A DNA stretch of 64,000 nt, from NCBI GenBank assembly GCA_021323535.1, contig JAJONO010000005.1:1-64000 (forward strand), given 5' to 3'. The position numbers and the translations under genes were made by a program. The number at the start of each line of letters is the position of its first letter. The first letter of the stretch is position 1. The notes under the pieces were generated by a model. It made no database searches, had not been told where the DNA came from, and was given only the letters and a program-made list of their open reading frames with translations. Origin of the DNA: Bacteroidota bacterium. GTDB lineage: Bacteria; Bacteroidota; Bacteroidia; B-17B0; Aurantibacillaceae. Positions 46,053-52,210 of this stretch are shown here, piece by piece.

Positions 46053-49000
46053 ATGAAATCATTTTTATTTTCCTGCAGTTTTATTGCTGCCTCATTTTTT
46101 GCTGTTGGCCAGGATTGGTCGGAGTTAATGCAAAAACCAGATGCCAATCTTTATCAGATCCAAAACAAATTTGAAAAATATTGGTCCGATAAAGACAAAA
46201 CAGAAAAAGGAAAAGGATATAAAGCTTTCAAACGCTGGGAGAATTTTGTTTCACCACGCGTTTATCCAACAGGAGACATTTCATTATTAAATCTCACGGC
46301 CAAAAACTACCAGGAATGGTATAACAATTACATGGGCAACAACGTTGGAGGGAAATTAATCTCTTCGAGCCCTCAGCAACTTGCTTCTACCACATGGACG
46401 GCAGTTGGCCCTATGGGTCCGATTAGCGGAAGTGCAGGCGGGCAACTATTAAAATCAGGAAGGATGAACTTTATCACGGTACATCCAACCAACACTCTTA
46501 ACCTTTATGTTGGAGCACCTGCAGGCGGATTATGGATATCTACTAATGGAGGCACAAGCTGGACCACCAATACCGATAACCTTGCTGTAACAGGATGCTC
46601 AGATCTTGCTATTGATCCCATCAACCCAAACAATATGTTTCTTGCAACAGGCGACGGTGATGCCGGCGACACAAGAAGTATAGGCGTTTTAAAATCAACC
46701 GACGGAGGCAACACCTGGAATGCAACAGGTTTAACTTTTCCTGTAGCTAACGGATATCTTATCAGGCGACTGATCATCAACCCAACAAACCCACAAATTG
46801 TAATTGCAGCAACTAACGGTGGCATCTATAGAACCATTAATGGCGGAACCAACTGGACGCAAGTGAGCACATCGAACTGTTATGACCTGGAATTTAAACC
46901 GGGAGATCCGAACACAGTGTATGCAGCCGGAGCATCTTTCAGACTTTCTACCAATGGCGGAGCAAGTTTTACGCAGATAACAAACGGTATTCCAAATACC
47001 GGCGTTGGGAGGATGGCCATTGCAGTTACACCTGCCGATCCGCTTTACGTGTATGTTATTGCCGCAAATAATACTGATGGGGGCTTACTTGGATTTTACC
47101 GTTCCACTGCAAGCGGAACTGTATTCACACAACAGGCAACATCACTCAATTTATTAGGATGGGCCACAATGGGTAACGATGCAGGCGGACAAGGATGGTA
47201 CGATCTCTGTATTGCTGCTTCCCCTCTTAATAAAGATGAAGTTGTTACCGGAGGGGTGAACGTTTGGCGAACACTCACTGGTGGGGGCTCGTGGGCCATT
47301 TATGGACACTGGACAGGCTCAGGCGCGCCGTTTACTCACGCCGATCATCACGATCTTGAATTTGCTCCGAACGGAACTTTATTCAACGCCAATGACGGAA
47401 CAGTTTACAGGAGAGGAACAACATCCTGGACAGAAATTTCAGGAACAATAAATATTTCACAGATCTATAAAATAGGCACATCCGCTTTAACTGCGAATAA
47501 ATGGATCACCGGTCACCAGGATAATGGAACCAGCATCTGGAACGGAACAACTTATAATGCTACTATGGGTGGAGACGGAATGGATTGTTTTATTGACAGA
47601 ACCAATGACAATAATATGTTTGCAGAATATTACGATGGCTCTTTCAGAAAATCAACAAATGGAGGAGGATCATGGTCCAACTGCACTACAGGAATGACAG
47701 GAACCGCGCCATGGGTTGCCATATGGAAACAGGATCCGGTTACCCCAACAACCTTATACGCGGGATATACCAATTTATTCAAATCAACTAATTCGGCGGG
47801 ATCGTGGACCGTACAAGGCACAGTAGGGGGCACAGGAACCATTATTGAATTTGCCATTGCTCCATCCAACAACCAGGTAATTTATGTTTTAAAAAGTTCA
47901 GGAATTTACAAAACAATAAATGGCGGAACCAACTGGACAAATGTTACAGGAACAGTTCCTGTTGCAAGCGCCGCGCCGCAATATATTGTAATTGATCCTA
48001 CCGATGCTAATAACGCATGGGTTGTATTGAGCGGATACTCTGCGGGAAATAAAGTATTCATGACTGCAAATGGTGGAACCAGCTGGACCAATTACACATC
48101 CAATCTTCCAAACATTCCTGGAAATTGTTTATTGTATCAAACATCTACCAACGACAGAATTTATGTTGGTATGGATGTAGGTGTTTACTACAGAGATAAT
48201 CTTTCGGCAACATGGACGCTTTATAACACCGGATTACCAAACACGCCGGTGTCGGATATGGAAATTTCTCCTGCTAATCCAACAAAAATTGTTGCAGCTA
48301 CATACGGAAGAGGAACCTGGATCGTTGACGCAATTGCTTCATCTGTGCCACCTTCATCTTCATTTAACTTTACAGGAACAATCTGTAGCGGAACACCAAA
48401 AACATTTAACGATGTATCTACGAACTCACCTACTTCATGGAGCTGGAGCGTTACACCTTCGGCCGGTGTAAGCATTTCATCGGCAACGGTGCAAAATCCA
48501 TCATTTACATTTTCGAACGGAGGGACTTATACTGTAACACTGGTTGCAACGAATGGAGCGGGGCCTGGTTCTCCTTCTAATCAGACAGTAACTGTAAGTG
48601 CAACACCAACAGTTGTAGTTACTAATAGTGTTCAAACAATTTGTTCCGGAGCAACCGCAACAATTACTTCAAGCGGAGCAACAACGTATTCATGGAACAC
48701 AGGAGCAACAACATCAAGCATTTCGGTTTCACCAACAGCAATGACAGTTTACACCATTACAGGAACAACGGGTGGTTGCAGCAATGTAAAGACCGCGACT
48801 GTAAATGTAAATGCAACACCAACAGTTGCTGTAAATAATCAAACCATATGTTCAGCTTCGTCTGTAACAATGGCGGCCAGCGGAGCATCAACCTATTCAT
48901 GGAACACCGGAGCGGCAACTTCGTCTATCGTTGTTTCGCCGGCATTAACAACTGTATATACTGTAACAGGGACCGCGGCGAATGGTTGTAAAAATGTGAA

Positions 49001-50372
49001 GACAGCAACCATCACAGTAAATTCATCTCCTACGGTCGCCGTAACAAATAGTGTTCAAACAATCTGTTCAGGAGCAACCGCAACAATAACAGCAAGCGGC
49101 GCAACAACGTATTCATGGAACACAGGGGCAACGGCGGCAAACGTAACAGTTTCCCCAACTGGAACAACTGTATACACTGTTACAGGAACAACTGGTGGCT
49201 GTACCAATGTGAAAACTGCAACCATAAGCGTTAACGCATCTCCAACGGTAAATGTGAACAATGCAAGTATCTGCAGCGGAGGCTCGGCTACACTAACAGC
49301 AACAGGAGCCAACTCTTATTCGTGGAACACAGGATCAGCAAGTGCTGCTTTAGTAGTATCTCCGGCCTTAACTACAGTTTATACAGTAACAGGAACCGCA
49401 GTGAATGGATGTAAAAATATAAAAACATCTACTGTAACTGTAAATACAACTCCGAGTGTTTCTGTAAGCGGAAGTGTTCAGGCAATTTGTTCAGGATCAT
49501 CTGCAACAATTACAGCAAGTGGAGCAGCAACTTATTCCTGGAATACAGGTTCAACTTCAGCAAACATTTCTGTTTCTCCTTCAGGGACAACTGTGTATAC
49601 TGTTACTGGATACAACGGCACTTGTGCTTCAATAATTAAAACAGCTACCATTACAGTGAATACTTCTCCGACAGTTAGCGTAAACAATGCTACTATCTGT
49701 TCAGGAGCAACTGCAACTATTACCGCAAGTGGAGCAACTACTTATTCATGGAATACAGGTGCAACAGCGGCAAACATCTCTGTTTCTCCAACGGTAACAA
49801 CCTTTTATACAATAACAGGAACAAGCGGTGCATGTAATAATATAAAAACAGCAACTGTAATGGTAAACGCGGCTCCATCCATTGGTATTTCAGCAAACAA
49901 TACTGTGATTTGCCAGGGCCAGATGGTTTCATTAACGGCAACAGGAGCCAATACGTATACATGGCAGCCGGGAGGTGTAACCGGATCGGTTGCTAACTTC
50001 ATTCCTTCCGCTTCAACAATTTATACCTGCACCGGTACTGGTGGAAATGGCTGCAACGGAAATAACTCAGTTTCCATTTCAGTTTCTCCTTGTACAGGAA
50101 TAATGAATGGAAGCAACGAGGTAAGTTTTAATGTGTATCCAAATCCAGTAAAAGATCAGATCACAGTAAACATCAACACAACTAAATCATTCGAGTGTAA
50201 AATAGAAATGTATGATGCCGCTGGCAAATTACTATTGAAACAAAACTCGAAATTTGAAAACGGAAGCAACGAACAACACTTCAACATGAATACCTTTGCA
50301 AAAGGAATGTACTACATGAAGATCACAACCAAAGAAGGAAACGTTCAAACGATTAAGATCGTGAAGGAGTAA
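46053..50372 (+). CDS. T9SS-exported sortilin-propeller, PKD and Ig-like repeat protein
   Basis: The 1439-residue protein has a signal peptide (KSFLFSCSFIAASFFAVGQ). A VPS10/sortilin-type propeller occupies about 100-760 with many Asp-box blades (WISTNGGTSWT, VLKSTDGGNTWN, YKTINGGTNWT). A PKD-like domain follows (about 765-850), then seven Ig-like repeats (about 852-1345), and a T9SS type A domain (VYPNPVKDQ, ending IKIVKE). The repeats alternate between two subtypes. The propeller type is also found in T9SS peptidases and glycan-binding proteins, but no active site is identifiable. Surface adhesin is the most natural reading. It is flanked by unrelated genes. Confidence 0.87.
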   Translation: MKSFLFSCSFIAASFFAVGQDWSELMQKPDANLYQIQNKFEKYWSDKDKTEKGKGYKAFKRWENFVSPRVYPTGDISLLNLTAKNYQEWYNNYMGNNVGGKLISSSPQQLASTTWTAVGPMGPISGSAGGQLLKSGRMNFITVHPTNTLNLYVGAPAGGLWISTNGGTSWTTNTDNLAVTGCSDLAIDPINPNNMFLATGDGDAGDTRSIGVLKSTDGGNTWNATGLTFPVANGYLIRRLIINPTNPQIVIAATNGGIYRTINGGTNWTQVSTSNCYDLEFKPGDPNTVYAAGASFRLSTNGGASFTQITNGIPNTGVGRMAIAVTPADPLYVYVIAANNTDGGLLGFYRSTASGTVFTQQATSLNLLGWATMGNDAGGQGWYDLCIAASPLNKDEVVTGGVNVWRTLTGGGSWAIYGHWTGSGAPFTHADHHDLEFAPNGTLFNANDGTVYRRGTTSWTEISGTINISQIYKIGTSALTANKWITGHQDNGTSIWNGTTYNATMGGDGMDCFIDRTNDNNMFAEYYDGSFRKSTNGGGSWSNCTTGMTGTAPWVAIWKQDPVTPTTLYAGYTNLFKSTNSAGSWTVQGTVGGTGTIIEFAIAPSNNQVIYVLKSSGIYKTINGGTNWTNVTGTVPVASAAPQYIVIDPTDANNAWVVLSGYSAGNKVFMTANGGTSWTNYTSNLPNIPGNCLLYQTSTNDRIYVGMDVGVYYRDNLSATWTLYNTGLPNTPVSDMEISPANPTKIVAATYGRGTWIVDAIASSVPPSSSFNFTGTICSGTPKTFNDVSTNSPTSWSWSVTPSAGVSISSATVQNPSFTFSNGGTYTVTLVATNGAGPGSPSNQTVTVSATPTVVVTNSVQTICSGATATITSSGATTYSWNTGATTSSISVSPTAMTVYTITGTTGGCSNVKTATVNVNATPTVAVNNQTICSASSVTMAASGASTYSWNTGAATSSIVVSPALTTVYTVTGTAANGCKNVKTATITVNSSPTVAVTNSVQTICSGATATITASGATTYSWNTGATAANVTVSPTGTTVYTVTGTTGGCTNVKTATISVNASPTVNVNNASICSGGSATLTATGANSYSWNTGSASAALVVSPALTTVYTVTGTAVNGCKNIKTSTVTVNTTPSVSVSGSVQAICSGSSATITASGAATYSWNTGSTSANISVSPSGTTVYTVTGYNGTCASIIKTATITVNTSPTVSVNNATICSGATATITASGATTYSWNTGATAANISVSPTVTTFYTITGTSGACNNIKTATVMVNAAPSIGISANNTVICQGQMVSLTATGANTYTWQPGGVTGSVANFIPSASTIYTCTGTGGNGCNGNNSVSISVSPCTGIMNGSNEVSFNVYPNPVKDQITVNINTTKSFECKIEMYDAAGKLLLKQNSKFENGSNEQHFNMNTFAKGMYYMKITTKEGNVQTIKIVKE
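48606..50087 (+). repeat. seven tandem Ig-like repeats of about 210 bp within the T9SS protein
   Basis: Unit starts at 48606, 48819, 49029, 49242, 49452, 49668 and 49875 give units of 71, 70, 71, 70, 72 and 69 codons and a divergent last one. Units 1, 3 and 5 carry NSVQ/GSVQ-x-ICSG and lack the NGC ending; units 2 and 4 carry NN-x-ICS and NGCKN; unit 6 shares the NN-x-ICS start but ends GACNN. The period is therefore a two-unit block of about 420 bp. Confidence 0.85.
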
Positions 50373-50672
50373 TCTGTTTACATTTCCGGTCGTTCCGGAA
50401 TACCACCAAACAAAGCTTCTTATGTTCGTGAGTTTTTATTTTATCTTCTTAGCATTCGGCGTTCTATTCTCGCGGTCTTACTTGTTTTTCTGATGCTTGG
50501 AAATATCATGATCTCGCTTAATTAATCCGGAAAATCTTTAATTATAATCGTCTGGTTATTCAACAGGCTACTGTTGTTTTTTGCACAAAATTTTATTTTA
50601 TAATGATGGCTGCTATGTTAGTTTTTGATTTTATCATATTTAAGTATATTTACTTTCATATCTTTTCATCTT
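50373..50672. other. intergenic region before the hydrolase gene
   Basis: No gene is seen in these 300 bases. A plausible promoter for the hydrolase is TTTG (50624-50627), 17 nt, TATATTTA (50645-50652, one mismatch). No convincing terminator follows the T9SS gene. Confidence 0.45.
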
Positions 50673-51479
50673 ATGCGCTCATTTATGGTAGCTGGTAAAA
50701 ATGTGTATACCTCCGGGGAGGTTAAAGATAAGGCTATTGTTTTTTTACACGGAAACTCATTAGATGCCCAAACATTTAAATACCAGTTTCAATTCCTGCA
50801 TGGAATGCCGCTGGTCGCTTTTGATTTGCCAGGACATGGTCTATCTAAAAAAGCATCTGATGCAGCAAAAACTTATAGTATTCCCGGTTATATCAATTCA
50901 CTTGAAGAGGTTATCCATGAATTAGGAATCCGTGATTTTATCCTCGCAGGACATTCATTGGGAGGGCATATTGCAATTGAGGCAACAGAAAAATTAAAAG
51001 GTATAAAAGGTTTGCTAATTATGGGGACTCCGCCAATCACAATTCCTCCGAAAATGGAAGAAATGTTTTTCCCTAATCCTGCAGCCGGAATTCTATTCAA
51101 GGAAACGGTAATGGAAGAAGAAGCCCTGGAGTTTGCAAAAAATCTTATCATTCAGGATAGCGGTCATTTAAAATTGCTTTCATCTTCTGTTTTAAAAACC
51201 GATGGCGCTGCTCGTGTAAACCTCGGAGCTTCACTTGGACAAGGATTATTCCAGGATGAATTAGCCATCATTCATAAACTTACGATCCCGGTAGCAGTTT
51301 TACATGGTCAGCAGGATGCAATCGTAAACCCGGAATATTTCCGATACCTTAACACCTCAGCGTTATGGGAAGAAAAAGTACACTACATTCCCGGCGCAGC
51401 TCATATGCCTCAAATCGAGCAGCCAGAGGAAACGAGTAAGCTGATCCGGAAATTCTACTCATTTGTTTTTAGAACCTGA
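50673..51479 (+). CDS. alpha/beta hydrolase, RsbQ-like in size and triad spacing
   Basis: ATG at 50673 (17th codon of the track ORF) is preferred because the upstream codons are hydrophobic leader-like and overlap the promoter; this gives 268 residues. The alpha/beta-hydrolase fold is clear: IVFLHGNSLD (oxyanion loop), FDLPGHGLS, nucleophile elbow GHSLGG (S95), acid D215 in HGQQDAIV, and H244 in GAAHMPQ. No signal peptide remains, so it is cytoplasmic. Substrate cannot be told. The stop overlaps the start of the PAS-LuxR gene (TGATG), implying coupled translation. B. subtilis RsbQ is a similar-sized hydrolase paired with a PAS-domain protein, so a ligand-processing role is a reasonable inference. 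Confidence 0.88.
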   Translation: MRSFMVAGKNVYTSGEVKDKAIVFLHGNSLDAQTFKYQFQFLHGMPLVAFDLPGHGLSKKASDAAKTYSIPGYINSLEEVIHELGIRDFILAGHSLGGHIAIEATEKLKGIKGLLIMGTPPITIPPKMEEMFFPNPAAGILFKETVMEEEALEFAKNLIIQDSGHLKLLSSSVLKTDGAARVNLGASLGQGLFQDELAIIHKLTIPVAVLHGQQDAIVNPEYFRYLNTSALWEEKVHYIPGAAHMPQIEQPEETSKLIRKFYSFVFRT

Positions 51480-52210
51480 TGAAGAAAGAAAAAATAGGAG
51501 ACTATTTAAATTCCGTAAGTAAAAAGCTTTCCTCCAGGAATGTGGTGAAAAGACCGTTTGCTCATATCAGGAACTTCCCGCTTTTAAAAGGACAAGGATT
51601 TTATGTACTGGATTATCAAAAAAAGAACATCACATTTCTGAAAGGGATTCTCGAACTGCTTGGATATACTCCTGAAGAATTTACTTTTGACCTGGTGACA
51701 GGTTATTTTCATCCGGATGATTACGACATTATTACAAGGCTGATTAAAGCGACCTTGCTTTTTGCAACTGAGAACAATGTAAGCCGCGACGTGGCTTTTT
51801 TTGTAACCTACCGTATACGACATAAGAAAGGACATTATGTGAAGGTACTAAGGCAGTCAACGGTTTTTGATCTCGACGAAAATGGAAAAATAATCAGTAA
51901 TCTTTCTGTTCTCTCAGATATATCTTTCTTAAGTACCTCCAATAAGGTTGACTGGAAATTTGAAGCTCCCGGACTGGATCAGAAAAAATTTAAGGCGTAT
52001 GTTACCAAAGAGTATCAAGGTTTTTTTTCAGAACGGGAACTAGAGATTTTAAAACTCCTAAAAGACGGGGCTACCAGCTCTATGATTTCAAAAAAACTGT
52101 TCATTAGCAAACATACAGTTGATGGTCATCGGAGAAATATGATCAGGAAAAGTAATTGCACAAATACCATTGATCTTATTAACTTTTCCAAAATCAACGG
52201 CTTATTATAA
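51479..52210 (+). CDS. PAS domain LuxR-type transcriptional regulator
   Basis: In this 243-residue protein, residues about 40-160 form a PAS-like domain (ITFLKGILELLGYTPEEF, YFHPDDYDII, FFVTYRIRHKKGHYVKVL, then a DLDENGKI turn) of the PAS_3 type. Residues about 182-243 form a LuxR/GerE helix-turn-helix (FSERELEILKLLKDGATSSM, then SKHTVDGHRRN). There is no receiver or kinase domain, so the PAS domain is the likely signal input and the HTH binds DNA. The ATG overlaps the hydrolase stop by one base. Targets are unknown; the downstream genes are candidates by position only. Confidence 0.9.
   Translation: MKKEKIGDYLNSVSKKLSSRNVVKRPFAHIRNFPLLKGQGFYVLDYQKKNITFLKGILELLGYTPEEFTFDLVTGYFHPDDYDIITRLIKATLLFATENNVSRDVAFFVTYRIRHKKGHYVKVLRQSTVFDLDENGKIISNLSVLSDISFLSTSNKVDWKFEAPGLDQKKFKAYVTKEYQGFFSERELEILKLLKDGATSSMISKKLFISKHTVDGHRRNMIRKSNCTNTIDLINFSKINGLL

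Follow-up and report, generated by a model that had tools for sequence, protein, structure and literature searches.

Organization of the hydrolase-regulator locus

In a 64,000-nucleotide stretch of a Bacteroidota bacterium of the Aurantibacillaceae (contig JAJONO010000005.1, assembly GCA_021323535.1; hereafter the window), a gene for a small alpha/beta hydrolase runs directly into a gene for a PAS-containing LuxR-type regulator, which raises the question of whether the two proteins act together. Bacteroidota have many LuxR-type regulators and few known signal molecules; an enzyme-receptor pair would offer a direct handle here, in that the ligand of the regulator should follow from what the hydrolase consumes or produces. 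Because the pair adjoins in many Bacteroidota, and in several gene orders, the results reported below suggest that hydrolase and regulator jointly form a chemical-sensing switch of a kind not described before.

The features of the locus are collected in Table 1. A previous sequence-only reading had described a 268-residue hydrolase with S95, D215 and H244 in a pair spanning positions 50673–52210, and inspection of the open reading frame and of these residues returned exactly the same values. The overlap proposed on that occasion was also found, the hydrolase stop codon TGA (51477–51479) and the regulator start codon ATG (51479–51481) having a single A in common at 51479. Pfam assigned the hydrolase, whose Ser95 sits in a GHSLG motif, to Abhydrolase_6 (1.7e-20), and recognised PAS_3 (5.5e-11) and GerE (5.7e-14) in the regulator, which consists of a single PAS domain and a C-terminal GerE helix-turn-helix (HTH), without a receiver domain. 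As no kinase or receiver domain was found adjoining the pair in the window, the description of the regulator as an orphan is appropriate.

Table 1. Coordinates of the features of the hydrolase-regulator locus in the window.
Feature	Position	Strand	Basis
AidH-family alpha/beta hydrolase, 268 aa	50673..51479	+	ORF, Pfam, best PDB relative AidH, fold of homologue L069
PAS_3-GerE (LuxR-type) transcriptional regulator, 243 aa	51479..52210	+	ORF, Pfam, AF2 model, fold matches
TGATG stop/start overlap	51477..51481	+	Sequence
Catalytic nucleophile Ser95 (= AidH Ser102)	50955..50957	+	Alignment to AidH
Phe154 at AidH Tyr160 position (AHL lactone contact lost)	51132..51134	+	Alignment; Tyr160 role from PMC3532132
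Catalytic acid Asp215 (= AidH Glu219)	51315..51317	+	Alignment to AidH
Catalytic His244 (= AidH His248)	51402..51404	+	Alignment to AidH
PAS_3 domain, regulator residues 55-142	51641..51904	+	Pfam; followed by DIS motif at residues 147-149
GerE/LuxR helix-turn-helix DNA-binding domain, residues 183-235	52025..52183	+	Pfam
Terminator-like stem-loop and T run (tentative), between upstream gene and pair	50561..50576	+	Consensus match only

The gene upstream of the pair encodes 1439 aa, including a sorting domain for type IX secretion, and ends 300 bases before the hydrolase; the gene downstream starts 85 bases after the regulator, and its 426-aa product gave no match in Pfam. Consensus matching retrieved five terminator-like hairpins in the region against 1.6 expected, and the one preceding the hydrolase would tentatively set the pair apart as a unit of its own. 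Several pairs adjoin the gene of a large secreted protein that carries a type IX sorting domain, a kind of protein common in Bacteroidota; this gene lies upstream of the pair in the window (46053–50372) and downstream of it in loci L069 (4146–8696) and L094 (7615–11925); no orthology of the latter two with the protein of the window was found.

Conservation of the linkage across genomes

Conservation of the linkage across Bacteroidota, a test that the sequence-only reading had set beforehand, was upheld. A clear relative of the hydrolase is carried by 8 of 87 genomes of the same family, with a relative of the regulator adjoining it in 8 of 8 cases. Similarly, 10 of 395 sampled Bacteroidia genomes carry the hydrolase family, always with an adjacent PAS-LuxR gene (10/10), the partner in genome G327 being a divergently transcribed version with two PAS domains. 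When both sets were combined (14 genomes, 15 hydrolase genes), a PAS-GerE gene was present within 1.5 kb in 15/15 cases, compared with 0/22 for the control, made up of other alpha/beta hydrolases of the same fold found in the same-family genomes at 24–30% identity, thus indicating a pairing beyond chance.

The scan was extended to named genomes with the closest hydrolases as query, the broader alignment being too diverse for this use, and returned 80 loci. A PAS-GerE gene within two genes was found for 42 of the 68 hydrolase genes scoring above 150 bits (one of them from a Hymenobacter plasmid, L131), seven of the named loci (L136–L140, L162 and L178) being contigs of genomes already counted and hence not independent. 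Most of the 26 unpaired genes come from other phyla such as Bdellovibrionota and Proteobacteria, or are located at the end of a contig. Carriers of the pair include Flavobacteriaceae, the genera Algibacter, Mariniflexile, Maribacter, Zobellia, Pseudozobellia, Aurantibacter, Arenibacter, Flagellimonas, Aquimarina, Marixanthomonas and Algoriphagus, the Hymenobacter plasmid, Bacteroidales, Prolixibacteraceae, Balneolaceae and Ignavibacteriota (Ignavibacteria). The hydrolase-regulator linkage is real and phylum-wide, and cultured carriers such as Zobellia, Algibacter, Algoriphagus and Hymenobacter make it experimentally accessible. In Bacteroidota, no third gene accompanied the pair beyond the synteny that close relatives share, and the search for a shared upstream operator or palindrome gave nothing convincing beyond A/T runs.

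Of the 49 paired genes placed on the tree, the hydrolase precedes the regulator in 32 and follows it in 8, while 8 further pairs are convergent and 1 is divergent; this implies at least 10 changes of order or strand with the pair unbroken. Overlaps of one or four bases occur in a subset (the window, L072, L186 and L200; L098, L099, L163, L184, L188 and L194), and gaps from tens of bases up to about 230 are found in other pairs. The exact overlap is not a conserved feature of the pair. Translational coupling through an overlap, proposed for the TGATG of the window, is therefore one option among several, since gapped, regulator-first and convergent pairs exist. Two arrangements with multiple genes were also observed, namely a single hydrolase with three PAS-LuxR regulators in tandem behind it (L099:1579-4677), and three tandem GerE regulators of about 225 aa each, with no recognisable PAS domain, between two hydrolases (L195:4938-8723).

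Family assignment and active site of the hydrolase

By sequence and predicted fold, the hydrolase is placed with AidH and is not RsbQ-like. AidH is the best solved relative of the window hydrolase (3.6e-34, 121 bits, about 30% identity), far ahead of the best KAI2 matches (38–45 bits) and of RsbQ (PDB 1wom; 7e-8, 35 bits, rank about 30). The family profile widened this gap, scoring AidH at 195 bits, the next match at 93 and RsbQ at 61. When the AF2 model of the homologous pair L069 was submitted to Foldseek, eight AidH entries ranked first, with an rmsd of about 2 Å for most, followed by generic esterases with E-values weaker by about nine orders of magnitude; RsbQ was absent from the top 50 matches. 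The motifs DLPGHG, GTPP and TDGxxR are common to AidH and to the hydrolase family. Homology of the hydrolase with RsbQ was thus rejected by sequence, profile and fold searches.

The window hydrolase falls in a clade of eight (support 98), all of them paired. Alignment to AidH revealed the triad in nearly every paired hydrolase (Ser in 56/57, Asp or Glu in 57/57, His in 57/57), and the paired enzyme probably works as a serine hydrolase and has a hydrophobic pocket.

Domain structure of the regulator

PAS_3 and GerE were present in 39/39 paired regulators examined, with DIS or DIT at the end of the PAS domain in 32 of them (DIS in the window). The AF2 model of the window regulator (pLDDT 93.5, pTM 0.86) has as nearest full-length solved folds 3clo (a Bacteroides PAS-LuxR-type regulator), autoinducer-bound VqmA, and EL222. 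A LOV photoreceptor, as the match with EL222 could have implied, was discarded upon inspection, as no LOV cysteine motif was seen. The ligand of VqmA depends on threonine dehydrogenase, and no hydrolase partner is known for this receptor. Like the window regulator, VqmA (PDB 6ide, 6ugl; DPO receptor) joins a PAS domain and a LuxR-type HTH in one small protein and was among the top full-length fold matches, although the identity between the two is low (about 16%). With VqmA and other PAS-LuxR regulators as its nearest full-length matches, there are solved precedents for direct control of a LuxR-type HTH by a PAS domain, and the suggestion that the PAS domain would switch the DNA-binding domain directly, in one step, is plausible. 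Residues Q39, P34/L35, R125 and W159 are enriched in paired versus unpaired regulators, two sets that also differ phylogenetically.

Probable loss of catalysis and of the enzyme in genus g10

In genome G067 the GHSLG and HGNS motifs of the hydrolase (L074:9267-10121) have become GHAIG and HGGS, so that Ala replaces Ser and Gly replaces Asn in the active site; the regulator is kept alongside. At the syntenic site of G077 (L076:9402-10118) the regulator is present with no hydrolase and no remnant of it, the flanks being 67–77% identical to those of G067 on both sides. This pattern is consistent with an enzyme that first became inactive and then disappeared. The dependence of the regulator on the hydrolase is hence not absolute, given the serine-less hydrolase of G067 and the regulator without hydrolase of G077, and the regulator can be retained without its partner, presumably with a changed control.

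Other partners of the two families

Regulators of the wider PAS-LuxR family adjoin alpha/beta hydrolases of other lineages with 4-base overlaps at L112:2133-2951, where the hydrolase is convergent, and L113:509-1504, where it lies upstream; these neighbours suggest an independent recruitment. On the other side of the pair, an AidH-family hydrolase is found directly upstream of a gene for a giant AAA-GAF-histidine kinase protein, which also carries a Ser/Thr kinase domain, in SAR324 (L144:5820-10802), and overlaps a giant AAA-GAF-histidine kinase gene in a member of the Catalimonadaceae, within Bacteroidota (L169:5759-10084). Judging from gene context, these giant kinases may represent an alternative output for AidH-family hydrolases. 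In Bdellovibrionota and relatives the hydrolase adjoins HTH_3 regulators, the HTH_3 gene being directly 3' of the hydrolase in L193 and, by position, also in L196, L198 and L201. In a Halobacteriovorax MAG, hydrolase and HTH_3 (XRE-type) are fused in one 541-aa frame (L182:4953-6578), a fusion that rests on this single MAG and could be an assembly error.

Comparison with known hydrolase-PAS systems

The sequence-only reading had compared the pair with RsbQ-RsbP. Layout and triad support the parallel: in both systems a small single-domain serine-triad alpha/beta hydrolase, with the triad intact, is encoded next to a PAS signalling protein, and the PAS domain is tied to several kinds of output. 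On the contrary, lineage, PAS motif and output do not. The hydrolase is AidH-like (121 bits versus 35 for RsbQ); the PAS_3 domain has DI(S/T), whereas RsbP-PAS domains are described as lacking a DIT motif (Nadezhdin 2011, PMC3183031); and the output is a GerE HTH (39/39) instead of the PPM phosphatase, histidine kinase or GGDEF cyclase, usually connected via a coiled coil, of the RsbQ-PAS modules (PMC3183031). The text of the same paper, which deals with hydrolase-PAS modules, makes no mention of LuxR, HTH or Bacteroidota. These comparisons indicate that evolution has combined serine hydrolases with PAS sensors on more than one occasion, drawing on different hydrolase lineages, and this repetition bears on how RsbQ signals.

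The plant receptors KAI2 and D14 are likewise alpha/beta hydrolases in small-molecule perception, but they are, like RsbQ, only weakly similar in sequence, and their partner proteins are unrelated. The PAS4-LuxR solos of Photorhabdus resemble the regulator as orphan PAS-HTH proteins thought to sense non-AHL small molecules; they have PAS_4 instead of PAS_3, and no partner hydrolase is mentioned in the part of the source consulted (PMC4235431). In the open-access literature searched, no report of an AidH-family hydrolase-PAS-LuxR pair was found.

Proposed mechanism and alternative explanations

On the whole we lean slightly towards the pair being a self-contained ligand switch made of two proteins, the hydrolase controlling the level of a small ester or lactone and the PAS-LuxR factor reading it. 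Hydrolase and regulator would form a cytoplasmic sensing module, with the regulator acting as a direct small-molecule-responsive transcription factor of VqmA-like layout and the AidH-family hydrolase as its dedicated partner enzyme, whose Ser-Asp-His triad would cleave an ester or lactone small molecule. Cleavage would make, or remove, the ligand read by the PAS domain, which would thus be the substrate or the product of the hydrolase; the effect on ligand and transcription may go either way. The activity of the hydrolase would thereby set transcription in one step. The ligand could possibly be handed over by direct contact between hydrolase and PAS domain, as proposed for RsbQ (PMC3183031).

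We counted in favour of the two-protein switch the invariant pairing against the control hydrolases, the pair outlasting rearrangement, the conservation of the triad and the constant PAS_3 and GerE domains, together with the recruitment seen in L112 and L113, the kinase and HTH_3 neighbours and the L182 fusion. Against it we counted the Ser to Ala pair of G067, the absence of the hydrolase in G077, the lack of a shared upstream operator among the pairs searched, and the many related PAS-LuxR regulators that have no hydrolase beside them. A fuller version, which we hold as possible rather than probable, is that the AidH-family hydrolase edits or perceives a non-AHL lactone or ester signal, passed by contact to the VqmA-like PAS-LuxR protein, the whole being phylum-wide, of an origin independent from RsbQ-RsbP, and with outputs swapped in other lineages.

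The main rival to the two-protein ligand switch sees the hydrolase itself as the receptor, its occupancy by the ligand, with slow hydrolysis as a timer, altering its docking on the PAS domain. Precedents are KAI2/D14 and model 2 proposed for RsbQ-RsbP, and RsbQ directly contacts RsbP-PAS and needs its triad (PMC3183031). A sensor role would also fit the L182 fusion and the exchange of output partners, and the Ser-to-Ala member of G067 keeps its partner. In addition, an AF2 model in which the stop codon of the L069 pair was read through (pLDDT 95) hints at a defined hydrolase-regulator arrangement, since its pTM of 0.70, obtained from a mostly unpaired alignment, is somewhat higher than expected for two independent halves. 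This pTM, however, is only suggestive of an interface and was given no weight as evidence of contact, and the near-universal triad fits plain catalysis equally well. We consider the receptor explanation rather unlikely.

It is somewhat less probable still that the PAS-LuxR protein senses an environmental ester substrate and merely controls an adjacent catabolic hydrolase. Regulator-enzyme neighbours are indeed common, a tandem pair could be autoregulated, and the regulator alone is retained in some relatives. However, the divergent layout usual for such pairs occurs in only 1 of 49 cases against 8 convergent ones, neither a transporter nor any additional catabolic gene is conserved around the pairs, and hydrolases of other lineages, as well as kinase or fused outputs, recur.

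A third possibility is quorum quenching, in which the hydrolase would be a lactonase acting on AHLs and the regulator would sense AHLs. AidH, the closest characterised relative by sequence and fold (the latter examined on homologue L069) and with the same triad, is a metal-independent N-acyl homoserine lactonase of Ochrobactrum (PDB 4g5x, PMC3532132), and AidH-like proteins of a flavobacterium have been listed as quorum-quenching candidates by BLAST (PMC4324048). In AidH, Tyr160 clamps the AHL lactone ring, and Phe189 and Phe192 form the tunnel gate (PMC3532132). Tyr160 is kept in just 1/57 paired hydrolases, Phe189 in 1/57 and Phe192 in 2/57, the window hydrolase having F, G and L at the three positions. 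As Tyr160 is almost never kept, an AHL appears an unlikely substrate. Furthermore, Pfam found no Autoind_bind domain in the window regulator (PAS_3 and GerE only), and AidH forms with plasmid relatives of Rhizobiaceae, Indioceanicola and Legionella a clade (support 99) apart from the paired proteins, no PAS-LuxR gene being present beside the hydrolase in the four proteobacterial plasmid neighbourhoods examined. The AHL explanation is accordingly very improbable. Finally, adjacency by chance with no functional tie, for which the sole argument is that neighbours can arise in this way, has next to no probability left, being already refuted by the genome survey (15/15 against 0/22) and by the persistence of the pair through rearrangement.

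Aside from the pairs, a recurrent hydrolase cluster was observed in Bdellovibrionota and relatives (L154, L182, L185, L193, L196, L198 and L201; also L157 and L191), where the hydrolase occurs together with a methyltransferase, two protein families that Pfam does not recognise, and a histidine kinase containing a PAS or GAF domain. From its gene content, this cluster is possibly signal-related.
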